From assembly GCA_028045305.1 (NCBI GenBank), contig JAOFTV010000002.1, positions 62,001 through 126,000 of the forward strand: a stretch of 64,000 nt of DNA, in the 5' to 3' direction. Below are positions 45,032-63,164 of this stretch, piece after piece. This DNA is from Opitutales bacterium. Its GTDB lineage: Bacteria; Verrucomicrobiota; Verrucomicrobiia; Opitutales; Seribacteraceae. The notes beneath the pieces were generated by a model, which worked only from the letters and a program-made list of their open reading frames with translations, did not search any database and was not told where the DNA came from. How positions within the stretch are numbered: the stretch's first letter is position 1; the number at the start of each line of letters is the position of its first letter. The position numbers and the translations under genes were made by a program.

Positions 45032-46399
45032 TTAAACTGGTTGCATAGTCCATCCATCGCGGTACGGTTTGTTAAGTAGAGAATTTGCATCCGTTCGACC
45101 ACATGATAACTCCTTCTCATTCCACTTAAATTCACCTCCTGTGGACATGACCACATTTCCCAGCAACATCCATTCGGTCAATTTTCCAGCGTACTCGAAA
45201 TTAGCAAGTGCGAAACTGGGTTGATTTTTTCTAATCGCCTGGACGAGTTCCTCCTTCATCCCGGAGTCACCACGACCATTACGACCAAGAGAGTTAACTG
45301 GTAAGGCTAGCTCAGTAGGTAGTTTCCAACCATCGCCTAAATGGGCTTCCCAGGTTGCTCCAAATGCTGAGGCTGAAAACATCGATCCTTTTGATCCGAG
45401 AATAATACATCCCTGTGGAGAAGGTTTTTTACCGAGGAAAAGTTCTTCATTGGGCAGATTTGGTTCTCCAAGCAAATTGCCTCCAAGGTGACCAACTCTT
45501 CCCTCATGCCAATATAAAGATATAATCTTGGACGAAGATGGAGCAGAAAAATCAAAACGAACTGTTCCCCAGGCTGGGTAAGTCTCTGGATGGTTGGGTG
45601 CCTGAAGCATGCACTTCACTTTTTGAGGAACATCCAAGCCACATCCCATTGCAGGAAGGTTTAACAGATGAATACCACTATCACCTAAAGCACCAGTTCC
45701 AAAATCTCGCCAACCCCGCCAATTGAAAGGCTGATAGGATGGATGATAAGGTCTTTTGAATGCAGGTCCAAGAAATGCATTCCAGTCCAATTCATTAGGA
45801 ATCGGAAATTCTCCAGCAGGGCGAGAATGTATTTTCGGTCCTTGTGGCCATGTCGGACGGTTCGTCCATACATGAACCTCCAAAATGTCACCTATTTCGC
45901 CCGATTGTAAATACTCAACTCCCTGCCGAAAGCCATTATGGGCACACCCCTGCATACCTACCTGCACACAAGCTTTTTTATCGCGAGCAAGTAGACGTAA
46001 CTGCCTGGCTTCCCAAACAGTATGTGCCATAGGTGCCTGCACAAAAACATGCATGCCCGCATTTAAAGCAAGCTGGGTGGCATGAGCATGGGTATGGTCT
46101 GGAGAACTTATTGTTACCACATCAATTTTTCCGGCCCATTGGGAAATCATTTTCCGATAATCACTGTACCTTGCAACCCTTGGATAAGATTGTAAGGCAT
46201 AGTCAAGTTTGCGTCCGTTCACATCACAAGCCGCCACCAATTGCCCATGCCTAGCAAGTTGATCCAAATCGCTACGACCCTTGCCCCCCACACCGATCGA
46301 GCCAATAAGCAAATTCTTATCCGCTTCTCCATGAGCTCTTGGTAAGAAGAGTAAAGCCCCCGATGATGCCATCGACCGAACAAAATTTCTACGCTTCAT
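45032..46399 (-). CDS. Secreted Gfo/Idh/MocA-family oxidoreductase
   Basis: A 455-residue NAD(P)-dependent sugar or inositol oxidoreductase. Start 46399 opens with a Tat-like signal (MKRRNFVRSMASSGALLFL); an ATG 21 bases earlier is possible. The Rossmann motif is IGSIGVGGKGRSDL, followed by ACDVNGRKL, SSPDHTHAHATQLALNAG and VQAPMAHTVWEA. In the last motif the catalytic EKP is replaced by QAP, which removes the usual Lys and suggests altered or lost dehydrogenase chemistry. Confidence 0.88.
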   Translation of the reverse strand: MKRRNFVRSMASSGALLFLPRAHGEADKNLLIGSIGVGGKGRSDLDQLARHGQLVAACDVNGRKLDYALQSYPRVARYSDYRKMISQWAGKIDVVTISSPDHTHAHATQLALNAGMHVFVQAPMAHTVWEARQLRLLARDKKACVQVGMQGCAHNGFRQGVEYLQSGEIGDILEVHVWTNRPTWPQGPKIHSRPAGEFPIPNELDWNAFLGPAFKRPYHPSYQPFNWRGWRDFGTGALGDSGIHLLNLPAMGCGLDVPQKVKCMLQAPNHPETYPAWGTVRFDFSAPSSSKIISLYWHEGRVGHLGGNLLGEPNLPNEELFLGKKPSPQGCIILGSKGSMFSASAFGATWEAHLGDGWKLPTELALPVNSLGRNGRGDSGMKEELVQAIRKNQPSFALANFEYAGKLTEWMLLGNVVMSTGGEFKWNEKELSCGRTDANSLLNKPYRDGWTMQPV

Positions 46400-46482
46400 T
46401 CCTAGAAAACTATGGGGCAATCAATTCAGAAACAAGCTTAGGTTGAACCAATCAGAAAAACCATACTTTTCACATCAGAAAG

Positions 46483-48588
46483 TCAAGGATTCAGCCCAAT
46501 CACTTGTATGGCATCAGCAACCACATATCCCTCCGTATTTTCATTGGACAGTGTAACATGGTAGCTTTTTCCCTTTTGAAAGGAAAAAGTACCCAGGGAA
46601 CTCCAAACATCGCTTCCCAAATGAGGCTTGCGTTGGTCAAGAAGCACCTTATCGATCCCCTCTTCATGAACGATCTCATATCTTATATTACCAGCACGGT
46701 TTCCAAAAGCAGAATAAGAAACTTTGATTTCATGAAGTCCTTCTGCAGGTGCCGAGAATGGAAATTTAATTTTACGCATGCCCTTTCCTCCATTGCCATC
46801 ATGATAATAGGAAGTCCCCACAAACGGACGAAGTGAACTACTTTTAAACCATTCCCCCTCCAACTCCAATTGCTCTCCATCCACAACGACGCCTCCTAAA
46901 CTAGACAAGAAAATCCCGATACCTTCAGTCACCCGGTTATCTTTGGTCAGCTCCAACACCTGTTTATCCTCCAACAAACGCTTACTTAATTCAGCATAGT
47001 CAACACCCTGCACCGGGATGTCTTCATCCACTGCAAGGGCTGCAGCCGTAGCTGCGGATTGACCCAAAATCATAAATACAGGCTCCATTCGTAGGGAGCC
47101 AAAAGCAACATGCGAGGCAGATAAACATACCGGCACAAGAAGGTTTGAACACTCCCTTAGTGGTGGAATAATCGCATCGTAAGAAATCGCATAAGGATCA
47201 ACCACAGGGACCTGGAAATCACCCTCATTGAGCACATAAGATCTTCCCTTTTCATCCTTAGTCACATATCGCTGGACATGACGAGAATCCATTTTGTAGC
47301 TACCCATGCCAATCGGTTTCAGGCTTTGTCTTTTTCCATTAACCTCATGTTCAGTCATCACAAAATCACTCATCATTCTCCTCGCCTCCCTAACATAGAG
47401 TTGCAACGGCCAATTTTCATTATCCACAAACTCATCTTTAGCCAGGCCCCATTTCTTCATCATCAGGCTGACTTCTTCAGGAACTCTCGGGTCATTACAC
47501 AAAAAATAAAAATAACCTTGTTGATACCGCTTGTGCTCATCGATGATTTTTTGACGCTCTTGGTAAGACCCATCGGGATATCCATAGTTCATCCCGATAT
47601 TGTCAGTGCTAAACCCACCGTAATTATTAGTGTCTGTTTTAGCATTGGGAATAGGATCAAACTTATCAAATACATGCCTCGAACCCTTTTTTAATGAACG
47701 CAAAAGCAGCTCATAGTGCCTGGAATCATAACCTTCGGGTTTCGGGAAAGACACCCGGTTCTCCTCTACCTGAGTAAGGCAAAGCCTAAAATTATAAGCC
47801 TGCATTTTTGTATCCATTGAACCATCGGTTCCTGGAATCTTATTACTTATTCGGGCAATCAAACCACTGGCTGGATCTCCATGGACAATGAAAGGATCAA
47901 TCCCTTTGGAAAATTGGTTTTTTAAAGCATGCGCAGTCTGTACACCATTGAATGTTTCACCGTAACGCCGATTCCCTTCCCTCCCGACAAAATAACTTAC
48001 ACCTGCAGCAGCCATCAGGTCTCCTTCGTAAGTACAATCAAGGAATACCTTTCCTTCATACCGATTTCCCGACAGGCAGGTTATGGAAAGTATTCTCCCC
48101 TTGTCGAGTTCCACCCCTTCATTGCGGTCCAAACGTTCATCACGAGCAATTTCCAAGTTATTTTCCCTAACCCATGATTCAAAGATATCCTCCGCAACCT
48201 TTGGTTCAAAAATCCACATGGTCCTACGATTGCCATCGACAGCGGGTGAACCCTGCCCACGGTTTCCATACTCGCTCATTTCCTGCCACTCCCATGCCTC
48301 CGGACTTTGATAATGCCTCCACACTCGGTGATAAAACTCTCGGGCAATTCCTCCGACCACTTCCTTTTTCCCACTATCTGTCCACCCAAGCCCATTACTT
48401 GTCAATCCACCCAACCTACGATCTGGCGAAACAACTATTACAGATTTTCCAATTCTCGTGGCCTGAACGGCCGCAGAAATAGCAGCAGAATTCCCCCCGT
48501 AAATGACAATGTCTCTACTAGTGGAATCCGCCCACAAATGCCAATTAAAAACGAAAAAAAGGCAGAACAAACGATAGACTAGTGACAT
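46483..48588 (-). CDS. Secreted FAD-dependent oxidoreductase with C-terminal golvesin-like domain
   Basis: A 701-residue exported flavoprotein. A signal peptide covers about residues 1-20. The FAD-binding fold starts IVIYGGNSAAISAAVQATR and continues with RRLGGLTSNGLGWTDSG, then FLDCTYEGDLMAAAGVSYFVGREG. The final 120 residues are a beta-sandwich with DGNGGKGMRKIKFPF and VVADAIQVIGL, like golvesin/xanthan-lyase C-terminal domains. Such proteins in Verrucomicrobia and Planctomycetes accompany carbohydrate degradation. Divergent from the haloperoxidase gene. Confidence 0.87.
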   Translation of the reverse strand: MSLVYRLFCLFFVFNWHLWADSTSRDIVIYGGNSAAISAAVQATRIGKSVIVVSPDRRLGGLTSNGLGWTDSGKKEVVGGIAREFYHRVWRHYQSPEAWEWQEMSEYGNRGQGSPAVDGNRRTMWIFEPKVAEDIFESWVRENNLEIARDERLDRNEGVELDKGRILSITCLSGNRYEGKVFLDCTYEGDLMAAAGVSYFVGREGNRRYGETFNGVQTAHALKNQFSKGIDPFIVHGDPASGLIARISNKIPGTDGSMDTKMQAYNFRLCLTQVEENRVSFPKPEGYDSRHYELLLRSLKKGSRHVFDKFDPIPNAKTDTNNYGGFSTDNIGMNYGYPDGSYQERQKIIDEHKRYQQGYFYFLCNDPRVPEEVSLMMKKWGLAKDEFVDNENWPLQLYVREARRMMSDFVMTEHEVNGKRQSLKPIGMGSYKMDSRHVQRYVTKDEKGRSYVLNEGDFQVPVVDPYAISYDAIIPPLRECSNLLVPVCLSASHVAFGSLRMEPVFMILGQSAATAAALAVDEDIPVQGVDYAELSKRLLEDKQVLELTKDNRVTEGIGIFLSSLGGVVVDGEQLELEGEWFKSSSLRPFVGTSYYHDGNGGKGMRKIKFPFSAPAEGLHEIKVSYSAFGNRAGNIRYEIVHEEGIDKVLLDQRKPHLGSDVWSSLGTFSFQKGKSYHVTLSNENTEGYVVADAIQVIGLNP

Positions 48589-48707
48589 TAATACTTTCTC
48601 ATATTTTGAGCCTTCATATAGTCAACATCTTTGTCATACAAGATGAGCAACTCGCTTATCACTTGACATCCATTATTCAGATAATTCGTAGTATGAATAG
48701 TCATGCT

Positions 48708-50000
48708 ATGTTAAAGAATAAAAGATTACAGAATTTACCATTAAAAGCTTATTTATTTTGTTTCCTTATTTGTTTCTTTGGGAACGCAGAGTCTAAAATT
48801 TTTGGGAAAGAGGATAGGTTTATGGAAAACTGGAGGAAAGCATTCGTAGAGTGCGTACGCATCGAGGCCCTTTCGCCCAACATCATGGTGCGCAATATGA
48901 CCATTTTTTCTATTTCTGTTCATGATGCTTTAAATTCCGCGGACAAGCGTTATGAGACTTTGTTTAATCATCAAAGTGCAAAAATCGGGTTTATTAACCC
49001 TGAGGCAATCATCGCGGGGTGTGGGTGGACTGTTTCTCGAGCCTTACACCCAAATCGCCAAGTTGCATTCAAGAGATTATCCTCTTTCGCAAGAAAAGAA
49101 GATGCAAATCAATCTGTCAAAAGCAGCTTCCTTCATGGGAAAAGAGTTGCCGAGAAAGTCTTACATAATCGTCAAAACGACGGGTCTTCAACTACCATCA
49201 GTTACCTAGCAACCGATTCCCCGGGCCAATGGAGAAGAACTCCAAAATTTTACCGCCCACCCGAACAACCACATTGGAGAAAAGTTAGGTTATGGGCATT
49301 ACCCGGAAAACAAAGCTTTCTGCCCCCCCCGCCCCCTTCTTTTGACTCAACAGCCTATGCTTCCTCAGTTAGCGAAGCTAAAACAATGGGAGGGAAATTC
49401 AGCCAACTCCGTTCACCCGAGGAGTCATTTATTGCCAAATTCTGGAAAGATTTTTCCTACTCCCAGACTCCTCCGGGCCATTGGAACGAAATAGCTGCCT
49501 TTGTCAGCCATGCATCAAAACTTGACCTCTGGGAAGAAGCTCGCCTTTTTGCATTGCTTAATCTTGCCATGACTGATGCTGGGATTATCTCCTGGCAGGC
49601 CAAATATCACTACCACCTTTGGAGACCAATCGATGCCATTCGCAATGCAGATGAATTTGCTTCCACCCGAAACCTGGTAAACAAATCATGGTCTCCCCTT
49701 TTGGAAACGCCACCTCACCCAGAATATCCCTCCGCCCATAGTTGCTTTTCGGGAGCTGCATCTCACATCATGCAACTTTTTTTTCAAAGCGATCGATTTT
49801 CTTTCCGTGTATCTAGCGACCAATATCCAGGTAAATATCGAAGGTTTGAAAGCTTCTCCCAGTGTGCTAGTGAAATCGGGAAAAGTCGTCTCTATGGCGG
49901 CATTCATTATAGTTTTTCCAATTTAAATGGGATTCAATGCGGGAAAAAGATTGGATCTTTCATTTACGCCAATCTACTCAAAAGCTTGCAAAGAAAGTAA
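48708..50000 (+). CDS. Secreted vanadium-dependent haloperoxidase-family protein
   Basis: A 430-residue PAP2-superfamily protein. Start 48708 gives a signal peptide (LKAYLFCFLICFFGNAES); other Met codons at 48693 and 48582 precede it. The vanadate-binding set is complete: Lys299 and Arg306 in KYHYHLWRP, Ser342 and the acid-base His344 in PSAHS, and Arg394 with the axial His400 in SRLYGGIH. Spacings (K to R seven, R to H six) equal those of Curvularia chloroperoxidase. The enzyme may halogenate or oxidise organic matter outside the cell; phosphatase activity is the alternative. Confidence 0.88.
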   Translation: MLKNKRLQNLPLKAYLFCFLICFFGNAESKIFGKEDRFMENWRKAFVECVRIEALSPNIMVRNMTIFSISVHDALNSADKRYETLFNHQSAKIGFINPEAIIAGCGWTVSRALHPNRQVAFKRLSSFARKEDANQSVKSSFLHGKRVAEKVLHNRQNDGSSTTISYLATDSPGQWRRTPKFYRPPEQPHWRKVRLWALPGKQSFLPPPPPSFDSTAYASSVSEAKTMGGKFSQLRSPEESFIAKFWKDFSYSQTPPGHWNEIAAFVSHASKLDLWEEARLFALLNLAMTDAGIISWQAKYHYHLWRPIDAIRNADEFASTRNLVNKSWSPLLETPPHPEYPSAHSCFSGAASHIMQLFFQSDRFSFRVSSDQYPGKYRRFESFSQCASEIGKSRLYGGIHYSFSNLNGIQCGKKIGSFIYANLLKSLQRK

Positions 50001-50094: not shown

Positions 50095-53000
50095 ATGAAG
50101 CTTCTCTTTTTCCCATTTTCCCTTTTTCTTTTCCTTTTTTCCCTGTCACATGCAAGCGAACTCACCATGGGGGATTTAAACGGAGATGGTGAGGTTAACC
50201 TCATCGATACGGTTCTCATGGTCAACCACATCCAAGGCACCGAATATATTACTGATTCCGATGCGCTAAAATGGAAGGCAGATGTAAACGGCGATGGATT
50301 GGTCAACTCTTTCGATGTGGAAGAGTCTCTCAATTTTGTGTTCAAAAGAGAGCCAAAAAAACAAATGCCCAAGACCAGTGTTCTCGCCACTAGTCCTTAC
50401 CATGGTGAAGGAAATATAGCACTGACACGAGAATTTGTTGTTCGCTTCACCATGCCGCTCAAGGAAGGCACTGTAATCACCGACGACTCCTTCTACGCCC
50501 ATTCCGCCGGTGACCTTATGATAACTTCTGCGCGCCTATCGTCTGATCGTATGAAAGCCACTCTTTTCCTGGGAGGGTTTCGTTGGCCATCCAACTCCAA
50601 AGTTACTGTTACTTTTAGAGGAACGGGTCTAACCGATTTCCTTGATCGCGAACTTGATTTGGATGGTGACGGGTCTCCAGGTGGCCATGGCGAATGGACA
50701 TTCAGCACACTGGCAGTGGAAGCTAGTGACCCAAGCACCGTTGTTAAAGGCAGAGTCCTAGATTCTGACAATTCCAATGGGGAAAGACCATTGGGCGGTG
50801 TAATTATTTCAGTTGTGGGAAATGAGGAACAATTTACCACCCTTTCGGATGTCAATGGATATTTCACCCTGACCTCGGCTCCCGTTGGTCGTTTTTTTGT
50901 GGTGGTTGACGGCAGACTGGTGGGTGCTGGCGCGGGAGAGACCCTGGCAGATGATCTTTGGAAAGAACGGGATTATTACACCTTTGTGGGTAAGGCTTGG
51001 GAAGGTGTGCCCGGCAAAGAGGTAAATGCCACAAAATATGGAAAATATGATGACTCGGGTGCTTACCAACCCAGCCCCAAAGATGGCAATATTTACCTCC
51101 CCCTCGTCAAAAAAGGTGCCCTACAATCAGTAAACTCCAGCACGGATACAGAAATCGCATTTGCCACGGGCTACTTAGAGGAGGCAAGCCCAGAGCAGGC
51201 AACCATGCTTCATGCAACCTCCATTACTATACCTCCCGGATCTCTTCAAGCCGACGACGGGACCCAGGGCGGTAGTGTGGGAATCGCACCGGTCGATCCC
51301 GAACGCTTGCCCGAACCACTGCCCGAGTCTCTGGCCATGCCACTGGTGATCACGATTCAGACAGATGGGGCCTCCAACTTCGATGTGCCCGTGCCGGCCC
51401 GCTTTCCCAATGTCGACAACCTTCCTCCCGGTACCAAATCTGCTCTTTGGAGCTTCGATCACGACACTGGGGTCTGGGAAATCTCCGGGCCAATGACAGT
51501 GAGCGAAGACGGAAAGTATCTTGAGACCGACCCGGGAGTCGGTATCCGTCAACCTGGCTGGCATGGTGCATCTCCTGGGGCACAGGTTTTTGGGACTGCT
51601 GTTATAACAGGTCCCACCATTAGCAAGCCCACACCCGGGGCTTGCGGTCTTACCCAGGAACAAATGGAGCTAACCGAGCAAGAATTCACCGACCTTGGCC
51701 GTTTATCCGAGGGTATCGAAGAAACGATCTTTGGTGCCAACGATGAGGATATCAGTTTTTCAAAGGAAATCTTATCTGCTGGGCACCATTTTGCCAAAGG
51801 TTCGGCAAACGGTGGGAAAAATTGGGATTTGTTTCGTAACCATGTGTATCGTGATGCCTCCCTTCACCAGGAAATTGCATCAAAAGCAGTGCAGTTACTT
51901 GGCAATGATTCCTTTTGGGCTGCATTTATATCCACTGCCGGGGTGATGAAAGACAATGCCCTGATTGCAATGATTGACCAAAGTAAAAGAGACCAGATTA
52001 ACCAAGCACACCTTACTTTTTTACAAAAGCATACTGTCGCCAAGGAGCAAATTACCAAGCAGCTCAACAAATGGGAAAAATACCTTCAATCCGTCGGTGC
52101 TTTGCTTGGGGAAACCAGCCTAGTTATAAATTATTCAACCATCCAGGGAAACCGAGGAGAACTAGGCCGGACAATCTCCCTTGTTAGTAAAGCCTTCCGT
52201 GCCCTCCCCGGCGGGCGCAAACGCCTGGACTCTTGCCTAAAACGATACGCTAAGGACTGGCAAAACTTCATCGAATCCACCCTCGATGGCAACCTGCATG
52301 CCTACAAAGGAGAATCCTTTGTTTTCTTAAAAAGAATTGGTTCAGATAAGGAGGAAAATCGCCTCCCTCCTATCGCTGCTCAGCGGATTCGTGTGGGAAC
52401 AGGTGGTGCCTATGATGCCATTGTCCGTCCCAACAGCTGGTACGAGGCATGGATGCTCGAACCCACCACCCTGGTCATTGGCTGTACCACCTTTATTTCA
52501 CCACGCAATGGAGGGAATGGTCCCGTGCCGCCCATTCCTCTTTGCAAGGATGACAAACCAGACAGTGACTATGACTACCTCTCCGACCGGGGTGAACGGG
52601 TGGTCGGCACCCATTCCCAGCAGTCAGACACCGATGGAGATGGCATACCCGATGGTTTTGAAATCATGAACGGTACCGACCCTAGCGGTGGCAACCCCGT
52701 GTTTACCGGCATTCTTGCCACCATCCCCACTCCCGACCGGGTATTTTCTGACTCTATCGTAACCGGCAATGACCTCGCCATACTAGGTAATGGGCCCCAT
52801 GGGATCGAAATTTTTGACATTGGTGCAGGTGTTCGCCCAATCAAGCTGGCAGGCATTGATACTCCCGGCTCGGTGCGCCGGGCCGCCCTTTCCGGTAATT
52901 TTCTGGCCATTGCCGATGCCGGGGCCGGCCTCACTGTGGTCGATCTGTCCAACCCCGAGGTGCCTTCTATTCGCTTTAATTTAAAACAGGAATCACCTGC

Positions 53001-56000
53001 CAATGCGGTGGCCGTATATGGTGGGGTTGCATTTGTGGGCCTGGAAAATGGCACCATTCATAGTTTCGATCTATTTAGTGGCCAACCAATCGATCAGGTC
53101 TCTCCTGGCCAACTTGTGGAGGATCTGGGAATTCTTGGTCGCCACCTCATTGTGCTGACCCACAAAAACAGGCAGCATTCCATGCTCCACTCCATTCCCT
53201 TCGTAAACGGCAGGTTTGCGGATGACGACGGGGAGTTTGCCCGGGTCGACCCCGTTAATACACCGGGTTTCCGCCAATGGGGTCTTGGCAATGGGCTGGG
53301 CAGGCGTCTCTTTGTGGGAGATGAATTTGCCTATGTTACCGATCTTATGGGCTTCACCCATTTCGACCTATCCGATCACTCAACCCCGGTTAAGCAAACT
53401 CGCACCAAAACAAGATCCCGTGGTTGGAGGCAAATTGTTGCCAATGGGTCTGGACTTGCGGTCAATTTGGAACATCGAAACAGCCCTAAGTTCGCCCTAG
53501 CCGACCCTGGGGTTTACACAGTTGATCTCGATGGTTCCTTCCTCCGCCCTGCATCAAGCTCTGACCCCCAGTATGTGGAAAACTTCGAGACCCGCTTTTC
53601 CACACCCGGAAACGCTGGGGATTTATCGATTTATAACGGCCTCGCCTACATTGCAGATGGATACTCCGGTTTGCAGGTGGTCAATTACCGCTCTTATGAC
53701 ATCAACGGGATCCCGCCCGATCTCAATGTATCGGTTACGGATTCCAATGGAACTACGGTTGTCCCTGATGGACTGGTGGAGGAAGCCAAGGCCGTGACCT
53801 TGCGGGTATCGACTTATGATGATGTGCAGGTAAAAAATATCGACTTCTTTGTCGATGGGGAGCGAGTTTTTGTGGATGGCAGTTACCCCTTTTCCTACAC
53901 CGTTACCGCCCCGCTTTATCAGGACAAGCAAAGCTTTACCCTGCGAGTAATCTCCCGTGATACCGGGGGGAATGAAGCCTACTGGCCAGGCCCCGGGGCA
54001 GCGGATGTGTATCGGATCAATGTTTCGGAAGATATGATCCCCCCAGAAGTGATCACATACTACCCCAAGGAAGACTCCACCGTGTTTCCCGGGGAAATTG
54101 CCGTGGTGGTGTTTAATGAAAGAATGGACCCAGAATCCATCACCCCCGAGACCATCCTCCTTCATAAGGTTCTGGAAAATGGAGAAACCATACCAGTCGA
54201 GGTGTCCACAGTTATCTATGACGATGCCACCCAGTCTGCCTACCTCACTTTGCCCGGCTCCATTGGACCTGCCCGCTATCGCCTGTTTGCCGATGTTAAC
54301 GCCACGGATCTTGCCGGTAATCCCCTGGTCACGCCCACGCCCGCCCGCCACTTGAATGGCCCGGGTGAACTGCATGGAACCTTCTGGTTTGATAAAAACC
54401 ACAATACCCAGCAGGAACAAGACGAGGAACTCCTCAGCGACTGGATCGCTTTTTTGGACTACAACAACAATGGTGAGCTCGACCCGGGTGAACCCACCGC
54501 TCTTGCAGACAGCGCGGGCAACTACTCCTTCACCGGGCTGCGCCCCGGAGGATATTCCGTGGCCGAAGAGATCCCTTATGGATGGGTGCAAACCTTCCCT
54601 CGCGAGCGTGAACTTGGCAATGAAGAAGACTTCACCAATGAGGGCTGGATCTACCAGGGGGATACCCCATCTGTAGATTCGCCCGCATCGGCACTGGCCG
54701 TGGACTCCCTAGGATACGGATGGTCTGCCGGGATCACCCCAGAGGGCAACTTTTCCCTGGGCAGCCTCTCTCTTGATGGCAACAACACCGCCGGCCAGCT
54801 CTACCTCGCCCGGCTGTCCCCCACCGGCCTTGTAGACCTTGCACTCTTGCTTGGACGCCCGGACGGGGCTGAAAATGGGGTCTCCCCTGCCCTCCTGCTC
54901 CAGGCAGATCAAGATGGCGGCGTCTGGCTGAGCGGTTCCTTTTCCGGGGCCACACTTAGTATTGCTGGAGAAACCCTTGATGCCAACGGCACACAATCGA
55001 GCTTTCTCGCCCGCTTCTCAAACGATGGCAATGTCACCTACCTAAACTCCTTTCCGGATATATCGATCACTTCGCTCTCTGCCGACCCCGAGGGCAGGCT
55101 TGCCCTGGCTGGTGTTTTTTCCGGCGGTGCCGTACTTTCTGAAGACTACACGCTCGAGGCCAACGGCAGCACCGATGGCTTCATTACTGTCTTAAAATCA
55201 ACCGGCGAGCTTGGCTGGGCCCGCTCCCTGGGGGGCAGCCTTGCAGAGTCTGTTGAGTCTGTATCCATCGACCCGATCGGTCGCGTATGGATCGCGGGAG
55301 ATTCCAACTCCTCCCAGTTTTCCAGCGGCAATCATCTGCTCGATCTCTCCGGAGATGCCGGGGGCTATCTTGCACTTTACGATGCCCACGGAAACGACCT
55401 TTGGGCAATCGATCCGGCCGGCATGCTCAGTGTTGCCGATGATGGCACGGGTGCCTGGTTTTTGGACTACAACGGTTCTCTTCCCGTCCTACGCTTCGTC
55501 GATGACAATGGTTCCGAGCATGCCCGGGCAAGCATAACCGGTGGCACAGTTCATCAACTCGCTGCAACTTCAGATGGCAATGCCATTGCCTCCCTGCGCA
55601 GTTCATCCTCCCAGGTTTCGATCAATGGAGAGTCCGTTTTCTCGGGCGAATCCAACCAATCCCTCCTCGTAAAGTTAAAGACCAATGGGGCCGTTGCATG
55701 GACCCTCCCATTGGGGGGTCAGTCCAGCACGATCGGGTTGCTCGCCCGAGGGTCGGATGATTTTGTCTGGGCTATGGGCGAGGTTACTGGGGATGAGGGC
55801 GAGGTACTTTCCCACGGGGACTATTCCATCTCTCTGCAGGGAGGGGGCAGTGTGACCGATGGCCTGGTCGCCTGGTATCCCTTCGATGGTAATGTACTAG
55901 ATATGTCAGAAAATGGCAATCACGGAACAGCACTTGCAATCGCTTTTAGCCCAGACAGAAACAGTAATTCGCTTCATGCCTTAGATACTCATTTCTCAAA

Positions 56001-59000
56001 TAATTATGTATCTTTTCCATCATTCAATGAAACAGTTAGGCGAAACTTTTCTTTTACTTTTTGGGCAAAACCTAGTGGTGAAATCGCTGTGATGCCTGAA
56101 ACTCAAACAGGTAATTACTCGCACCACCACACTCAACCACTTTGGGCAGCGGATCATGGAAATTGGGCGAATGCTGAAATGGGTATTGGAATTTCCCTTG
56201 GATTTAATGGGCTCAATGTGCTTCAGCATACTAACGATATTTATTCATCAATTTTATCGTTAAGCGGAGAACTTTCTGGATGGTTATTTTACAGCATTTC
56301 ATTTAGCAATAATATACCTTCTCTAAGTATAAATGGCATTTATCAAAAAGAAGGGTTAGCGAGCTATAATACTGCTACTCTTTCCCGAAAGATTGGTAAA
56401 GATAGTTACGGCGAATATAATGGTTTAATCGACGATGTCCGCATCTACAACCGTGCTTTATCCCAAGAGGAAATTACTCAATTGTACCAAGGTAGCGGGG
56501 GCAGCGGCGAACAATCCGTACTCCTTAAAGTCGACCCGAGTGGCGAGGTGGCAGGGTTGTGGCGAACTTCTTCCCCCACCGACTCCCTATTGGTTGATGC
56601 CTATGATAATGTATGGACCAGCGGGTTACATATTGGGCAGACAGGCGTGGATCACAACCTCTCCCTGGGCAGCCGAAACCTTTTGGGCGATGCCGCCAAT
56701 AGCCGCTTTTTCGGCCGCATTGGCCGGGGTGGTGCCGAATATCACAATGTACAACTCGGAGCAGCCGAGGTAATAACGGGGCTCGATTTTGGCAATGCCC
56801 TGCCCCTGGTGGAATCCCGCACTGCGATGTGTGTGGGCGGGCCGGATGAAGATGCTTCCCGGGCGGTGGTCACCGACCCCGCAGGCAATGGATATTATGC
56901 GGGTGATTTTACCGGATATACCGAGTTTGGTGGTCGCCGCCTCGAAAGTGACGGGCAAAACGATGCCATGTTTGTAAAATTTCTACCCGGCGGAGAAATT
57001 GACTGGGCACGAAATTTTGGCGGGGATGGAGACGACCTGGGGCACGGAATTTTTGCCGACAACAATGGGTCCCTCTTTGTCTGCGGAACCTTTCAGGGGA
57101 CCGCTCAGTTTGGAGAGTTCGAACTGGTATCCGCCGGTATGCGCGATCTATTTGTATCGCGGTTGGATGACAATGGTTCCCCCCTTTGGGCATTCCGTGC
57201 CGGTGGCCCGGAGGATGACGAGGCAAGAGGCCTCATTGCCGACTCCAACGGCTCGCTCTATGTCGCCGGCTCGGTTAAACAAACGGCAGATTTTGGCCCC
57301 TACTCACTCACCAGCCGGGGCGGCTCCGATGCCTACCTTCTCAAGCTCGATTACAACGGGTCCGTACAATGGGTGGGCTCTCTCATGAGTGAGGATACTG
57401 CGCAGATCACTGCCCTTTCTCTCGATGCTCAGGGGCTACCGGTGGTGGCGGGAGATTTTGCGGGCACTTTGGAACTCCGGGGGACAGGCCATGCCGACGA
57501 TGGCACCCCCGTAGTCATCCGTACCGACACCAACCAGACAGTTGCCTACGGAGATCCCGTGGGGCAATCTCCCGATCTATCCCTGGGCTTGGTTGCCTGG
57601 TACCCCTTCGATGGCAATGCTTCCGATATGTCTGGCAACGGCAACCATGCAACTGTGAGCGGAGCCATTCTTACCCCAGGTTTACTGGGCAATTCTGAGC
57701 ATGCTTACAGGTTCGACGGGGTGGATGATTACATTCAGACTCCTGTTTCCTCAGACATGATGGACACAACCCTATCCTGTTGGTTTAAACTTGGATCGAT
57801 AGAAGCTTATCAAGCAATCATTAACTCTGACACACATGGTCAGCATGGTAGAAGCCTTGTCCATGGTCATTCCGTTGCCAATACGCTCCATGTACAATAT
57901 CACGATAATTTTTATAACTCCGGATATATTCCAACGGTTGGTAAATGGGATCACGCCCTAATCTCTTACACAAGCGGGCAATTCAAATTTTATCTAAACG
58001 GCAACCATTTGGAATCTCACAGTTATGTCCAACAACCCCTGGATGGAAGCAATTACCGACTTGGTCGACATGGACGGCCTGACATAGACGACCAAGCATG
58101 GTGGTATAACGGATCCATTGATGAAGTCCGTATTTACAACCGCTCGCTCATGCAGGAAGAAGTTTCCTCTCTTTACATGGGTGGCCTGGGCCGTGCCCTC
58201 TCTTACAGTTTCGATGGGGAACTGCCCAGCGATGCCAATGTGAGCGGGTATGCCCTGGCGAGTGACCGTTCCGGCTTCCTTGGCCAAGCACTCAGGATCA
58301 ATTCAAGCAACCAGGGATTCACCCTTCCCGAGTACAATGCCACCGATCAGTGGGCCCTCTCTTTTTGGGCAAAGCCGGAAATCCAGGGGGCCAATGCCAC
58401 CTCTGTAATCTCTCTTAGTGAGGACTTAAGCCTGACCTTCTCGCTTGATGAAAATGGGTCCAAGTTGTACCTTCTGCTCGACGATGCCAATGCATCCACC
58501 CCTGCCCTATCCAGTGCCCCGATATCCACTGAGGCACTGCTCGCTCACGATGGCTGGCTTCATCTCTCCCTAACCCATGGGACTGGGAGAACTGCTTCTG
58601 GCAGCAATACTTTAGCCGGTGAAAACGGACACTCCTTATTTCTTAAGGAGGATGGGTCACTTTGGGCAACGGGATACAATAACTACGGTCAGTTGGGCGA
58701 TGGGACTAGATTACAAAAAAATTCTCCCGTTCAAATTGTGGATTCTGGGGTGGTTCAAGTAGCAGCAGGATATTATCACTCCTTATTTCTTAAGGAGGAT
58801 GGGTCACTTTGGGCAACGGGATACAATACCAACGGTCAGTTGGGCGATGGGACTACATCACAAAAATATTCTCCCGTTCAAATTGTGGATTCTGGGGTGG
58901 TTCAAGTAACCGCAGGATCTCATCACTCCTTATTTCTTAAGGAGGATGGGTCACTTTGGGCAACGGGAGACAACACCAGCGGTCAGTTGGGCGATGGGAC

Positions 59001-61188
59001 TACATTACAAAAAAATTCTCCCGTTCAAATTGTGGATTCTGGGGTGGTTCAAGTAACAGCAGGATATTATCACTCCTTATTTCTTAAGGAGGATGGGTCA
59101 CTTTGGGCAACGGGACACAATACCAACGGTCAGTTGGGCGATGGGACTACATTACGAAAAAATTCTCCCGTTCAAATTGTGGATTCTGGAATGATGATGG
59201 GCACAGATGGCACCGGGGCACACACTGGTGGATCGGTGGTATCCCTAAATGTTTACCTCAATGCAGAAAAGAGTGCATCAGGCAGGTTGCAAAGTACTGC
59301 CCTGCCCAGGCTTGCCGTACAGGGGGAGGAATACACCGGCGGGTTGGATGATTATCAACTCATTGTTGGTAACCTAGGAGATCACACGATCCCATCCATT
59401 TACCAGGCAACGGCTGAGTCCCGCCTAAGCACCAACCCAAAATTACAATCTGCCGGGCAGAAAGATTTGTTTGTTGCCCGGGTGGATCAAAACGGGCTGA
59501 TCACCCAGCTTGCTCATGGGGCGGGCACAGGAATAGAGGGGGCAAGCGGGATTGCCCGGGGTCTGCTGGGCGAATATTACTTAACCGGCAAGCATGGCCC
59601 CTCCCTAAGCCTTGGGGGCAAGCAGACCAGTGGGGATAGCCCCATAGTCAATGCTTTCTTTGCCCAACTGGGGGAGGATCTGCAGACCCGCTGGGTCAAA
59701 ACCCTGGGGGGCGGGGGCTTCAATTTGGGCCAATCTGTGGCGGTGGATGCCAAGGGGCGTGCCTTTTTTGTGGGAAGTTACTCGGGCACCGCCCATTTTG
59801 ATGAGCGCTCGCTTACCGCCCGGGGCGGTTCCGATGCCTACCTTGCCGAGTTTGACTATCGGGGAAACCTCCTTCGTCTGTACTCTCACGGAGGAACCAG
59901 CAGCGATTCTGGCACTGCAGTTGCCCTGAACAACGATGGAGGGATCATTCTTACCGGTACTTACCGCGGAGAGGCCGAGATTTTTGACGGCGAGCATATC
60001 TGCCATGAACATGGTGGAACCGATGTGTTTGTGGCCCGCTACGATTATGGAATCGATGAACCCCAGACTCATTATACCGTAAAAGTCGCAGAGGATGACA
60101 ATGGTACAGAAATCATTCTTCTTAATGATGAGCCCGCCCCTGAGGTGGAATTGATCCCCGGCCTTACCTACACCTTCGAACTGGATGGCAACACCACCGA
60201 GGAGCACCCCTTTGTGATTGTGGAGGAGGAAGGGGCTGACCCCGAGCTCTGGGATGTGGAGGAAGATGTGAACAACAGCGGGGCAACTCAAGGTACTGTG
60301 GTGATTAAAGTAGATGAGGAAACTCCCGAGGAACTCGGTTACACCAGTGGCAACAAGCCAACCATCGGTGGAGGCATTGTGGTTAAGCAGGACCCCAAGC
60401 CGAAGTACCGCCTGACCATCGCCCAGTTTGATGACGGGAACAACTCGGTGCACGGTGCGGATATTCGGGTGTTTAAAAATTCCCAGGAAGTCTCGCTGGA
60501 CGAACCATTTGAGGAGGGCACCCGCCTGCGGGTGGAGCTTAAAGAACGCGATGATTATATCTTCGAAGGCTGGGTCGGAGATCTACCCAATGATGCGGCT
60601 GGCCAGCTGAACAAAGCCCATACCTTTGTGTTGAATATGGACCGGGATCGCGACCTCCTTGCCTACTTCTCTACCCCTGCCCCCGATGACCCAAGAGACT
60701 TTCTCGATGAAGTCATACTAGTGATCCAGGGTGAAGAAGTGGATGAAAATGGGGATAAGGTTGGAAATTCGGTACCGTATATTATTATTTTCACCGTCGA
60801 TCAGGATGGAATTAAAGAGGATGGCACCTCGGGCTCTGTTCGGGTAATTGGACGAGTCAATGAAAACGGGACAATTAATGAAGACCTGGACTTCGATGAT
60901 GATGGTAGAAGTGATGTGATAAACGGTAGGTTTATCTTCGAACAGACAGATACAGGAGAAGGCACTTTTCGAATCGTAAACATGACAGCCACCCTGGCCA
61001 CTGGAGAAGAATGGATAGAAAATGGGGAGAAGGTTGAACCTTGGGGAGGAAACATGGAAATGTCTATCGTGTTTCAAAAAGATAATGGGGGGAAAGAGAC
61101 CGGAAACTTTGTCATGTTCAAAGACGATGCCACAGTTGACCAAGGCGGATGGGAATCCGAAAAGGTACGCAAGGACTTTTCACTCTAA
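50095..61188 (+). CDS. Giant secreted multidomain surface protein with N-terminal dockerin-like repeats
   Basis: The 3,697-residue protein has a signal peptide (1-20) and two EF-hand-like calcium loops at 27-38 (DLNGDGEVNLID) and 63-74 (DVNGDGLVNSFD), the pattern of a type I dockerin. Later domains, approximate: Ig/Big_5 95-215; carboxypeptidase-regulatory-like 217-275; calcium-binding DTDGDGIPDG near 845; LVIVD-like propeller 875-1202; two Ig-like 1215-1420; SdrB-like 1423-1500; SBBP-type propeller 1519-1916 and 2140-2480; LamG 1921-2132, 2496-2695 and a split one 2701-3102; RCC1 repeats 2845-3031; more propeller 3103-3320; InlB-like 3436-3529. No C-terminal sorting signal or anchor is seen. 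Much of the gene looks more GC-rich than its surroundings. Probable adhesin or surface fibre; first gene of module B. Confidence 0.88.
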   Translation: MKLLFFPFSLFLFLFSLSHASELTMGDLNGDGEVNLIDTVLMVNHIQGTEYITDSDALKWKADVNGDGLVNSFDVEESLNFVFKREPKKQMPKTSVLATSPYHGEGNIALTREFVVRFTMPLKEGTVITDDSFYAHSAGDLMITSARLSSDRMKATLFLGGFRWPSNSKVTVTFRGTGLTDFLDRELDLDGDGSPGGHGEWTFSTLAVEASDPSTVVKGRVLDSDNSNGERPLGGVIISVVGNEEQFTTLSDVNGYFTLTSAPVGRFFVVVDGRLVGAGAGETLADDLWKERDYYTFVGKAWEGVPGKEVNATKYGKYDDSGAYQPSPKDGNIYLPLVKKGALQSVNSSTDTEIAFATGYLEEASPEQATMLHATSITIPPGSLQADDGTQGGSVGIAPVDPERLPEPLPESLAMPLVITIQTDGASNFDVPVPARFPNVDNLPPGTKSALWSFDHDTGVWEISGPMTVSEDGKYLETDPGVGIRQPGWHGASPGAQVFGTAVITGPTISKPTPGACGLTQEQMELTEQEFTDLGRLSEGIEETIFGANDEDISFSKEILSAGHHFAKGSANGGKNWDLFRNHVYRDASLHQEIASKAVQLLGNDSFWAAFISTAGVMKDNALIAMIDQSKRDQINQAHLTFLQKHTVAKEQITKQLNKWEKYLQSVGALLGETSLVINYSTIQGNRGELGRTISLVSKAFRALPGGRKRLDSCLKRYAKDWQNFIESTLDGNLHAYKGESFVFLKRIGSDKEENRLPPIAAQRIRVGTGGAYDAIVRPNSWYEAWMLEPTTLVIGCTTFISPRNGGNGPVPPIPLCKDDKPDSDYDYLSDRGERVVGTHSQQSDTDGDGIPDGFEIMNGTDPSGGNPVFTGILATIPTPDRVFSDSIVTGNDLAILGNGPHGIEIFDIGAGVRPIKLAGIDTPGSVRRAALSGNFLAIADAGAGLTVVDLSNPEVPSIRFNLKQESPANAVAVYGGVAFVGLENGTIHSFDLFSGQPIDQVSPGQLVEDLGILGRHLIVLTHKNRQHSMLHSIPFVNGRFADDDGEFARVDPVNTPGFRQWGLGNGLGRRLFVGDEFAYVTDLMGFTHFDLSDHSTPVKQTRTKTRSRGWRQIVANGSGLAVNLEHRNSPKFALADPGVYTVDLDGSFLRPASSSDPQYVENFETRFSTPGNAGDLSIYNGLAYIADGYSGLQVVNYRSYDINGIPPDLNVSVTDSNGTTVVPDGLVEEAKAVTLRVSTYDDVQVKNIDFFVDGERVFVDGSYPFSYTVTAPLYQDKQSFTLRVISRDTGGNEAYWPGPGAADVYRINVSEDMIPPEVITYYPKEDSTVFPGEIAVVVFNERMDPESITPETILLHKVLENGETIPVEVSTVIYDDATQSAYLTLPGSIGPARYRLFADVNATDLAGNPLVTPTPARHLNGPGELHGTFWFDKNHNTQQEQDEELLSDWIAFLDYNNNGELDPGEPTALADSAGNYSFTGLRPGGYSVAEEIPYGWVQTFPRERELGNEEDFTNEGWIYQGDTPSVDSPASALAVDSLGYGWSAGITPEGNFSLGSLSLDGNNTAGQLYLARLSPTGLVDLALLLGRPDGAENGVSPALLLQADQDGGVWLSGSFSGATLSIAGETLDANGTQSSFLARFSNDGNVTYLNSFPDISITSLSADPEGRLALAGVFSGGAVLSEDYTLEANGSTDGFITVLKSTGELGWARSLGGSLAESVESVSIDPIGRVWIAGDSNSSQFSSGNHLLDLSGDAGGYLALYDAHGNDLWAIDPAGMLSVADDGTGAWFLDYNGSLPVLRFVDDNGSEHARASITGGTVHQLAATSDGNAIASLRSSSSQVSINGESVFSGESNQSLLVKLKTNGAVAWTLPLGGQSSTIGLLARGSDDFVWAMGEVTGDEGEVLSHGDYSISLQGGGSVTDGLVAWYPFDGNVLDMSENGNHGTALAIAFSPDRNSNSLHALDTHFSNNYVSFPSFNETVRRNFSFTFWAKPSGEIAVMPETQTGNYSHHHTQPLWAADHGNWANAEMGIGISLGFNGLNVLQHTNDIYSSILSLSGELSGWLFYSISFSNNIPSLSINGIYQKEGLASYNTATLSRKIGKDSYGEYNGLIDDVRIYNRALSQEEITQLYQGSGGSGEQSVLLKVDPSGEVAGLWRTSSPTDSLLVDAYDNVWTSGLHIGQTGVDHNLSLGSRNLLGDAANSRFFGRIGRGGAEYHNVQLGAAEVITGLDFGNALPLVESRTAMCVGGPDEDASRAVVTDPAGNGYYAGDFTGYTEFGGRRLESDGQNDAMFVKFLPGGEIDWARNFGGDGDDLGHGIFADNNGSLFVCGTFQGTAQFGEFELVSAGMRDLFVSRLDDNGSPLWAFRAGGPEDDEARGLIADSNGSLYVAGSVKQTADFGPYSLTSRGGSDAYLLKLDYNGSVQWVGSLMSEDTAQITALSLDAQGLPVVAGDFAGTLELRGTGHADDGTPVVIRTDTNQTVAYGDPVGQSPDLSLGLVAWYPFDGNASDMSGNGNHATVSGAILTPGLLGNSEHAYRFDGVDDYIQTPVSSDMMDTTLSCWFKLGSIEAYQAIINSDTHGQHGRSLVHGHSVANTLHVQYHDNFYNSGYIPTVGKWDHALISYTSGQFKFYLNGNHLESHSYVQQPLDGSNYRLGRHGRPDIDDQAWWYNGSIDEVRIYNRSLMQEEVSSLYMGGLGRALSYSFDGELPSDANVSGYALASDRSGFLGQALRINSSNQGFTLPEYNATDQWALSFWAKPEIQGANATSVISLSEDLSLTFSLDENGSKLYLLLDDANASTPALSSAPISTEALLAHDGWLHLSLTHGTGRTASGSNTLAGENGHSLFLKEDGSLWATGYNNYGQLGDGTRLQKNSPVQIVDSGVVQVAAGYYHSLFLKEDGSLWATGYNTNGQLGDGTTSQKYSPVQIVDSGVVQVTAGSHHSLFLKEDGSLWATGDNTSGQLGDGTTLQKNSPVQIVDSGVVQVTAGYYHSLFLKEDGSLWATGHNTNGQLGDGTTLRKNSPVQIVDSGMMMGTDGTGAHTGGSVVSLNVYLNAEKSASGRLQSTALPRLAVQGEEYTGGLDDYQLIVGNLGDHTIPSIYQATAESRLSTNPKLQSAGQKDLFVARVDQNGLITQLAHGAGTGIEGASGIARGLLGEYYLTGKHGPSLSLGGKQTSGDSPIVNAFFAQLGEDLQTRWVKTLGGGGFNLGQSVAVDAKGRAFFVGSYSGTAHFDERSLTARGGSDAYLAEFDYRGNLLRLYSHGGTSSDSGTAVALNNDGGIILTGTYRGEAEIFDGEHICHEHGGTDVFVARYDYGIDEPQTHYTVKVAEDDNGTEIILLNDEPAPEVELIPGLTYTFELDGNTTEEHPFVIVEEEGADPELWDVEEDVNNSGATQGTVVIKVDEETPEELGYTSGNKPTIGGGIVVKQDPKPKYRLTIAQFDDGNNSVHGADIRVFKNSQEVSLDEPFEEGTRLRVELKERDDYIFEGWVGDLPNDAAGQLNKAHTFVLNMDRDRDLLAYFSTPAPDDPRDFLDEVILVIQGEEVDENGDKVGNSVPYIIIFTVDQDGIKEDGTSGSVRVIGRVNENGTINEDLDFDDDGRSDVINGRFIFEQTDTGEGTFRIVNMTATLATGEEWIENGEKVEPWGGNMEMSIVFQKDNGGKETGNFVMFKDDATVDQGGWESEKVRKDFSL
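55843..56504 (+). repeat. Short direct repeats flanking an inserted LamG domain
   Basis: GGGGGCAG at 55843-55850 recurs at 56497-56504, exactly around the first LamG domain of the giant gene. Joining the flanks restores a continuous propeller blade (DYSISLQ followed by SVLLKVDPSG). The enclosed DNA is visibly AT-richer than the flanks. Confidence 0.6.
58631..59189 (+). repeat. 147-base tandem repeats encoding RCC1-like units
   Basis: Units begin at 58631, 58778, 58925 and 59072 with a constant 147-base period (49 residues); the fourth stops after about 118 bases. Copies are nearly identical in DNA, including synonymous sites. Each encodes HSLFLKEDGSLWATG, GQLGDGT and SPVQIVDSG, the RCC1 blade pattern. 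The array interrupts a LamG domain. Confidence 0.95.
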
Positions 61189-61208: not shown

Positions 61209-63164
61209 ATGAATATTTCCATGAACAAAATACTTTCCTCCCTCTTCTTTCTTACCATACTGTGGTGCCACCTTCCTGCACGAACCACTCTCACACCCTC
61301 GCAACCAAGCGGCCTAGCGGGGGAAGAGTCCCTGGTGGAAATCTATTTTTCCAGCGAAACCACAGAGGTGGTTGGTGCGCAATTCACCCTACAGTACGAC
61401 CCAACCGCGTTAGAAATTGGTGAGATTCTTGGAGGCTCTTCCCTACAAGGGCATGATCTATTTGATGAACAAAATGCCACATCAGGAAGAATTTCCATTA
61501 CCCTGCTATCGATGAATAATAAAGCGTTCAACAATGGAATCCTTGCTAGCATATCATTCACTCTACTAAGCGATCTTGCCGGCAACTCAGACGCTATCTC
61601 TTTTATCGAGGAGGAGACCCTGTTGGTAACTATAGCCGGGCAAAGCCAGGGATATGAAGCCATGGCCATGATCAACGAATTATACCTAAGCTTTTCTTCC
61701 TCCGGAGATGCTAACCGGCCATCCACTTCACGCTCAGTCGCTTTCTCCGCGGATGATGACGGTTCCGACGCCACTTACGAGTGGGACTTTGGAGATGGCA
61801 CTGTAATTGCAGGTAAAACCGCGAGCCATACCTATGAGCAAGCGGCCCAATACCTCGTTACATTAACCGCCACCAATTTACTTGGATCTGTAGAAACCTC
61901 CCAAAATATATCCATCAGTTCCCCCTACTGGGACTTAGATGCTATAGACCTGGGCAATGGATGGAAATCCTTTGACTGGTTTGGACGTTATTATGAATCC
62001 ACTGGTACAAATTGGATTTATCACGAGAACCTCGGTTGGCTCTACCGTTCTGGCACCACAACTGATAACACCTGGCTATGGTCTGACCTATGGCAATGGG
62101 GGTGGGTGAGTGATACAACCTTTCCCTATGTTACCCTGTCAGTATCAGATTGGCTCTATTACTTTAGTGGAACCTCCGACCCAGTAAGGTATTATGACTT
62201 TGAACTAATAAAGTGGCTGGAAGGAAACTTTCTATCTGCCCGCACAATCGAACTTACCGCTGCTAACGAAGGTGGAGAAATAGATGGCCCCACATCTTTC
62301 TACCCCGGACAACAACTCGTTTTTGTTGCCCGGCCCGCTCAGGGGTTTGTATTTGCGGGTTGGACGGGTGACTACAACAGTGGCCAAAACCCCCTCATCA
62401 TTGATGATGCACGGAATTCATTCTCCTTGGAGGCAGAATTTGTGACTGTTCAGACTGTCAGCCAGCAGGGGAGTTCGGTCATCAATCTGGACCACCTAGA
62501 TGGAGAAAGTAAAGAACTCGCAACTGCCCAACTGAATGGACTGGGTGAATCTACCTTCGTAAGCTCAGGTAATGCTCCCGTATTTGAATTTTCAGGAAAA
62601 GGAGATAGCCGTTTACTCTCAGCTGTGAACGCTGGCATCCTCGAGAGCACTGTAAATATCGGTGTTTTTGATGAAAATGCAGCCGAAATCAATCATAAGC
62701 ATTTACCCCTCATGCCAACTCGTGATCTTGAGTATATTTCCGGCCAATCTCGCAGAGTTGGCAGTTGTACTTTTTCTGGAATCGATATTTGGAAAGGCAT
62801 CCCTTGTCTGGTTATGACAATCTCCTTAGGGTCTGAATATACTGAGGATAGAAAACTTGCCCAGGATACCCTTGGCAATGTATGGATGCTCGATTCTTTA
62901 TCCAAAGGGAATTCATTACAACAAGCTCCCACCCTGCTTCTTCCAGTCATTGATTCAATCGTCGATGGGTGGAAAAGCTGGCCCACCGGCTATGTAATCC
63001 CCCCCGATCATGCAATTAGCACGGGCGTGGAAGGAAAGGTCAGAGTAGGAGGACTTGGAGCCCTAGAGAATGTAATTTCTCTGACCTTGAACCGTAAAGA
63101 TGCTCCTGGACAAAAAGAAATCTTTGCCAAAGGGATAGGATTAGTTCAAATATCTCTACCTTAG
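61209..63164 (+). CDS. Secreted cohesin-like / PKD / tryptophan-domain / InlB-repeat protein (module B)
   Basis: ATG 61209 follows a GGAG ribosome site (61192-61195) and gives a signal peptide; an earlier ATG at 61149 lies inside the giant gene. Residues about 30-150 match the cohesin fold: a VEIYFSS strand, VVGAQFTLQYDPTALEIGEI and GILASISFTLLSD. Residues 165-238 are a PKD domain (YEWDFGDGTVIAGKTASHTY). Residues 248-336 repeat the tryptophan-rich domain of the module A protein (LGNGWKSFDWFGRYY, YHENLGWLY, WQWGWV). Residues 345-415 are an InlB-like repeat with FVFAGWTGD. The last 230 residues are unrecognised. I infer an adaptor whose cohesin may bind the dockerin of the giant protein. Confidence 0.82.
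   Translation: MNISMNKILSSLFFLTILWCHLPARTTLTPSQPSGLAGEESLVEIYFSSETTEVVGAQFTLQYDPTALEIGEILGGSSLQGHDLFDEQNATSGRISITLLSMNNKAFNNGILASISFTLLSDLAGNSDAISFIEEETLLVTIAGQSQGYEAMAMINELYLSFSSSGDANRPSTSRSVAFSADDDGSDATYEWDFGDGTVIAGKTASHTYEQAAQYLVTLTATNLLGSVETSQNISISSPYWDLDAIDLGNGWKSFDWFGRYYESTGTNWIYHENLGWLYRSGTTTDNTWLWSDLWQWGWVSDTTFPYVTLSVSDWLYYFSGTSDPVRYYDFELIKWLEGNFLSARTIELTAANEGGEIDGPTSFYPGQQLVFVARPAQGFVFAGWTGDYNSGQNPLIIDDARNSFSLEAEFVTVQTVSQQGSSVINLDHLDGESKELATAQLNGLGESTFVSSGNAPVFEFSGKGDSRLLSAVNAGILESTVNIGVFDENAAEINHKHLPLMPTRDLEYISGQSRRVGSCTFSGIDIWKGIPCLVMTISLGSEYTEDRKLAQDTLGNVWMLDSLSKGNSLQQAPTLLLPVIDSIVDGWKSWPTGYVIPPDHAISTGVEGKVRVGGLGALENVISLTLNRKDAPGQKEIFAKGIGLVQISLP

Follow-up and report, generated by a model that had tools for sequence, protein, structure and literature searches.

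A vanadium-dependent haloperoxidase and a co-inherited giant protein as the probable halves of an extracellular halide-oxidising unit in an Opitutales bacterium

What might a vanadium-dependent haloperoxidase (vHPO) do outside the cell of an Opitutales bacterium, and with which protein would it work? For the natural role of bacterial vHPOs, a partner indicated by both co-inheritance and gene fusion is a testable lead. The original prediction for the window (the whole stretch of DNA that was analysed, 64,000 nucleotides) had placed a secreted haloperoxidase beside a divergently encoded flavoprotein that might supply its peroxide; our results shift attention from this neighbouring flavoprotein to a giant protein encoded on the other side. 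We consider it probable that the exported vHPO and the giant make up a two-part extracellular unit that oxidises halide, the giant either positioning the enzyme or receiving the oxidant. The genes concerned are the following:

45032 to 46420, minus strand: Gfo/Idh/MocA oxidoreductase, the conserved neighbour of the FAD gene, outside the unit (Pfam, neighbourhoods)
46483 to 48588, minus strand: FAD-dependent oxidoreductase, PF12831 plus Golvesin_C, outside the unit (Pfam, distribution)
48708 to 50000, plus strand: vHPO, 430 amino acids, with a signal-like N-terminus (open reading frame, phmmer, profile search; export judged by eye)
50095 to 61188, plus strand: giant, putatively exported partner, 3697 amino acids (Pfam, co-occurrence, fused Rhizobium homologue)
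61209 to 63164, plus strand: cohesin-PKD protein (Pfam; the start is a later ATG than that of the longest reading frame, from 61149)
63172 to 64000 in the window, ending at 64263, plus strand: 363-amino-acid protein with a coiled-coil-like and a barrel-like part (barrel judged by eye)

The vHPO reading frame is intact and starts with ATG, with alternative in-frame starts upstream at 48693 (ATG) and 48582 (GTG). The predicted secreted haloperoxidase holds up in its family assignment: a phmmer search of PDB sequences places the protein closest to an iodoperoxidase of Zobellia galactanivorans (4cit, E 4e-39) and then to the Curvularia chloroperoxidase (E 6e-15), and A2, a profile of 22 relatives, matches 4cit at E 7e-68. 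Export is what the N-terminus would suggest, where a lysine-rich start runs into a hydrophobic stretch that, by eye, resembles a signal peptide. With regard to the all-helical vHPO fold, an AlphaFold model built on an alignment of four sequences reached a mean pLDDT of 37.7, too low to be of use. A viral origin was considered and rejected: viral contigs gave no match and phage records a single weak one (25% identity). A scan of the locus for promoter-like and terminator-like sites counted 1 and 3, the means for shuffled sequence being 3.7 and 2.0.

The giant contains Pfam dockerin, Big_5, CarboxypepD_reg, TSP3, LVIVD, Big_7, SdrD_B and LamG-like domains together with RCC1 repeats; several of these repeats are alike (58624-59181, roughly residues 2844 to 3029), the other domains of the string being unrelated. 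A search with its N-terminal part (residues 20-519, query P0003) matched six of the 42 family genomes, and these are precisely the six that have the vHPO (hypergeometric probability 1.9e-7, kinship ignored), one of the six vHPOs being a 60-residue fragment in genome G311. Across the 322 genomes of the order, the giant occurs in 15, a vHPO in 24 and both in 12, and the giant is present in all 12 genomes with a vHPO of the window's clade (tree support 98/99) and missing from the remaining 12 vHPO genomes (2e-19, again ignoring kinship). Eleven of these 12 clade genomes stand on the tree through their own row or that of an identical genome, and G311 was placed by its fragment only. The giant gene lies directly 3' of the vHPO gene in all six family cases, in G311 after the vHPO remnant, and the gap measures 17 bp in two g154 loci and 94 bp in the window. 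In three f5 genomes both are present and non-adjacent on the stretches examined. Conversely, the giant is found without a detected vHPO in G335, G371 and G496 (3 of the 15 giant genomes of the order), and also in G121, from another lineage. In G311 the start of the giant is intact next to a vHPO remnant, so a giant can persist after its enzyme is lost. We regard the giant, rather than the FAD protein, as the better-supported candidate partner of the vHPO. The literature searches made gave no paper that pairs a haloperoxidase with LVIVD, choice-of-anchor, Big_5, UnbV, FG-GAP, CRTAC1 or VCBS-repeat domains or with an Opitut- name, and none that describes the pair of vHPO and giant.

In the f5 genomes (L128-L137), the dockerin giants come after a protein of 435-442 amino acids that has BACON/Ig domains and, in its N-terminal third, nothing recognised; some of these giants are broken up into two or three reading frames in a row. 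We considered these BACON/Ig proteins as hidden cohesins and rejected the idea, as none of the four tested gave a cohesin match.

The case for joint action of vHPO and giant is strongest in some Rhizobium plasmids, where homologues of both are joined in proteins annotated as 'Ig-like domain-containing protein' (R. beringeri U8P75_26535; R. phaseoli AMC90_RS21490), with a vHPO first and the giant's core after it, as the genes lie here. In the single open frame of R. phaseoli, the vHPO occupies residues 1129-1504 (36% identity), and residues 1707-2145 and 2420-3062 match residues 90-517 (30%) and 731-1411 (28%) of the giant, with their order kept; its Pfam domains are Big_5, CarboxypepD-like, LVIVD and Big_7, with no dockerin match in the translated part, which stops at the locus end. 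In R. beringeri the fused feature is annotated as a single CDS, 7746 bases long. Of 72,556 plasmid records searched, the N-terminal part of the giant matched four, all from Rhizobium; three of these records (H1-H3) carry a vHPO under the same feature name among the vHPO matches listed (60 of 101), and the fourth, NZ_CP140852.1, is absent among those 60. Besides being fused, the Rhizobium vHPO domain differs in falling into another tree group than the window's vHPO, and the two genes may therefore have been fused and brought side by side independently. As a further fusion, the vHPO of Nostoc MS1 is joined to a CARDB domain.

Could a large partner be common amongst these enzymes? In a second Opitutales vHPO clade, 11 of 13 loci have, immediately 3' of the vHPO gene and in the same orientation within the 1.5 kb examined, a gene for a protein of ~1100 amino acids with FG-GAP/UnbV_ASPIC domains (L007-L009, L011, L012, L017 and L030-L034). 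These pairs are alike in that a large exported repeat protein follows the vHPO, yet the partner family is unrelated and the vHPO clade separate. Because two unrelated large exported repeat proteins thus accompany two vHPO clades, such a partner may be a general habit of vHPOs, as this comparison of loci suggests.

How would a unit of vHPO and giant work? Outside the cell, the vHPO would use hydrogen peroxide to oxidise a halide, most likely iodide and possibly bromide, to a hypohalous species, and the giant would be the likely carrier of the enzyme or target of its oxidant. The peroxide would perhaps be external, from algae or other microbes, or be made elsewhere in the cell. Iodide or bromide is a likelier substrate than chloride, given that the Zobellia iodoperoxidase is the nearest relative of known structure. 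At the position of Curvularia Phe397 the window's vHPO has His337, which resembles bromoperoxidases, while similarity over the whole protein speaks for the iodoperoxidase. For the family in general, passages of PMC11871015 describe a cycle in which vanadate binds peroxide, the halide attacks and hypohalous acid departs, and they place specificity outside the first shell; the residues that determine halide choice are called largely unknown in a passage of PMC13198595. The extracellular halogenation that had been proposed is possible, but the nearest enzyme of known structure is an iodoperoxidase; the proposed attack on marine polymers is without direct support.

Two further genes may extend this unit, through the following domains:

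50170 to 50319, plus strand: dockerin type I domain of the giant (Pfam, 41.0 bits against a cut-off of 22.9)
61299 to 61604, plus strand: cohesin domain of the cohesin-PKD protein (Pfam, 40.9 bits against a cut-off of 24.1)

They are the sole dockerin and the sole cohesin found in this genome, which is 77.3% complete, and they lie in adjacent genes; judged by their domains, they make up a cohesin-dockerin pair that is minimal and non-cellulosomal, in a genome of the Opitutales. A cellulosome has dockerins borne by glycoside hydrolases and a scaffoldin with several cohesins; in this assembly a single dockerin and a single cohesin were found, and the giant's Pfam matches include no glycoside hydrolase family. 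The dockerin of the giant could bind the cohesin-PKD protein encoded next to it; the vHPO itself carries no dockerin. The last gene of the row encodes the 363-amino-acid protein, which has no Pfam match and looks by eye like a coiled coil followed by an outer-membrane β-barrel, its C-terminal part ending in Phe; such a protein might tether the complex to the outer membrane. Among relatives, contigs end inside the giant, before any position for a cohesin gene, and the family listing shows a homologue reaching the cohesin part only in G317 and G310 besides the window's genome. G310 has its cohesin-bearing homologue, yet neither vHPO nor giant was found there. G297 has a second copy of the giant, and ahead of this copy lie a homologue of the C-terminal part of the cohesin protein and a barrel-like protein with weak similarity.

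We posit, more tentatively and without expecting it to hold in full, a surface-tethered halide-oxidising machine composed of the vHPO, a giant β-propeller/Ig scaffold and a cohesin dock, in which case many 'orphan' bacterial vHPOs would be one half of two-part systems. The few cohesin-dockerin systems outside cellulosomes would thereby gain one that is associated with a haloperoxidase. Parts of PMC6461901 set out one of these, the 'planctosome' model for Nemodlikiaceae, freshwater Planctomycetes, in which cohesins and dockerins operate without cellulose. Both systems are non-cellulosomal and involve large exported proteins, one of them with thrombospondin type 3 repeats according to the same parts of PMC6461901; the planctosome cargo described there consists of peptidases, whereas here it is a haloperoxidase gene that accompanies the dockerin protein.

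Perhaps the product of the reaction is unneeded, and the vHPO consumes the peroxide (together with iodide) of an algal oxidative burst to shield the cell surface. Such a detoxifying role would suit a trait as patchy as this one, found in one of eight genomes of the genus, and agrees with the upregulation of Zobellia vIPO3 with Ascophyllum nodosum reported in a part of PMC9296495, a study of macroalga degradation. However, it leaves unexplained both the tight link to the giant and the fusion in plant-associated Rhizobium, and we think it unlikely. Halide oxidation is flagged as an accessory, patchy trait in an Opitutales family.

Is the protein a haloperoxidase at all? The vHPO and PAP2-type acid phosphatase families have a common active site, and in Pfam the protein matches PAP2 only, at 26.5 bits and so slightly below the cut-off of 27.2; a search of NCBIfam gave no match. 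A PAP2-type phosphatase that has retained this site is nonetheless very improbable. Run against PDB sequences at E <=0.001, the A2 profile gave 22 matches, of which 21 are vHPO-family chains, NapH enzymes among them, and the remaining one is an unrelated antigen fusion, with no acid phosphatase among the 22; moreover, Trp296 aligns with Trp350 of Curvularia. With similarity to solved vHPOs across the catalytic domain in both the phmmer and the profile search, the product of 48708 to 50000 is, by sequence and by a match far beyond chance, a vHPO.

Its active site can be read from a 39-row alignment of the window's vHPO, 30 other Verrucomicrobiota loci, 6 plasmid records and fragments of 4cit and 1idq, the last of which stops short of motif 3; the short L024, L035 and L037 were excluded. 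The motifs are:

49602 to 49625, plus strand: motif 1, K299 to R306 (KYHYHLWR; K invariant over all 39 rows, R kept in 36)
49731 to 49739, plus strand: motif 2, S342-A343-H344, with Gly changed to Ala in the middle (S and H each in 36 of 39)
49887 to 49907, plus strand: motif 3, R394 to H400, the axial His (R and H each in 35 of the 38 rows with a residue there)

All six vHPO residues (K, R, S, H, R and the axial H) are present, and the predicted completeness of the vanadate-binding and catalytic site is confirmed, K299, R306, S342, H344, R394 and H400 aligning with the vHPO site. The exact fungal spacing also claimed applies inside the three motifs: K and R of motif 1 are 7 residues apart, equal to K353/R360 of Curvularia (counted from the aligned row), the S-x-H of motif 2 equals S402/H404, and R and H of motif 3 are 6 residues apart, as in Curvularia, where they are presumably R490/H496. 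Between motifs it differs, K299 and S342 being 43 residues apart and their Curvularia equivalents 49. The Curvularia inaequalis vanadium chloroperoxidase (1idq) thus resembles the window's vHPO in its within-motif spacing, in a Trp three residues before the Lys and in a TDAGI(I/F)SW stretch, and differs in its length of 609 amino acids, its Phe397 and its distance between motifs 1 and 2. ZgVIPO1 of Z. galactanivorans (PDB 4cit, 4usz) is bacterial, the best solved relative and has the same six residues; it differs in the Gly of its motif 2 (SGH) and in a Phe where the window's vHPO has His337, and it sits on a long branch of the tree that gives its kinship no clear place. We know of no giant partner for ZgVIPO1.

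Does the missing Gly of motif 2 mean that the enzyme is decaying? The Gly to Ala exception noted in the original prediction is real and unremarkable: the middle residue is Gly in 26 of 39 rows and Ala in 8, including Ala343 here. The Gly contacts vanadate through its backbone NH, and because Ala retains that NH we count the Gly as usual, not defining, for vHPOs. That the Ala abolishes vanadate binding is a very doubtful reading. It is the single departure from the SGH consensus, and a vHPO remnant does exist in G311, but in seven of the eight Ala rows the other six site residues are unchanged, the exception being the Nostoc row with Ser changed to Ala, and on a 35-row tree, made without L013, L014, L016 and the Curvularia fragment, the Ala label requires three changes. 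We accordingly rejected the Ala as a mark of inactivity. Truly decayed sequences lose several residues together, which the window's vHPO has not: L013, L014 and L016, which come from other families within the class, no longer have the His of motif 2 and the motif 3 residues and are probably not haloperoxidases. L109, on a Phaeobacter inhibens plasmid, is annotated as a vHPO with Cys-Gln-His in motif 2 and deviates more than the window's protein.

Least credible of all is the proposal that the vHPO draws its peroxide from the exported FAD oxidoreductase, with a divergent promoter region co-regulating both: the divergent arrangement is borne out, with 119 bp between the genes, and recurs in four of the five family genomes with a whole vHPO (the window's, G312, G317 and G326), but G297 has no FAD gene in the 1.4 kb examined upstream of its vHPO and its FAD homologue on another contig, the clade-A vHPO loci of other Opitutales families show no FAD homologue, and the sequence searches of the PF12831 protein gave no sign of an oxidase. 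Against solved structures, its Golvesin_C tail alone was matched. At an orthologue cut-off of E <=1e-100, the FAD gene occurs in 30 of 42 family genomes (14 of 14 good ones included), most of which lack a vHPO, against 6 of 42 for the vHPO, and on this distribution we rejected it as the peroxide-supplying partner. The FAD gene also keeps its own company: 26 FAD-bearing genomes have no vHPO next to the FAD gene, and the neighbourhoods of the 17 that were examined show an epimerase gene as upstream neighbour in 17 of 17 and Gfo/Idh nearby in 16 of 17 (L099 stops at a contig end); neither vHPO nor giant was matched there at the cut-offs applied. As far as gene distribution tells, the FAD gene is a common neighbour and not a dedicated vHPO partner.

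The same epimerase gene lies at 64291-65235 in the window's genome. Because FAD and epimerase genes adjoin in all 17 relatives examined, the stretch from 48589 to 64290 between them, with four genes all on the plus strand and gaps of 94, 20 and 7 bp along the row, is an insert relative to these relatives. In the three g154 genomes whose vHPO is whole, this site beside the FAD gene likewise holds vHPO and giant; in G311, FAD adjoins the epimerase and the giant is on another contig. A search for mobile-element ends of the insert showed that the two boundary stretches share no exact words of 10-12 bases, direct or inverted. Past the window's end, several genes within 65323-80840 are 97-100% identical to those of the relatives G294/G288 (L086, L088, L107), and the adjoining FAD, Gfo/Idh and epimerase genes only about 50-69% identical to their G294/G288 counterparts; this abrupt mosaic of identity downstream of the insert suggests recent between-species recombination.
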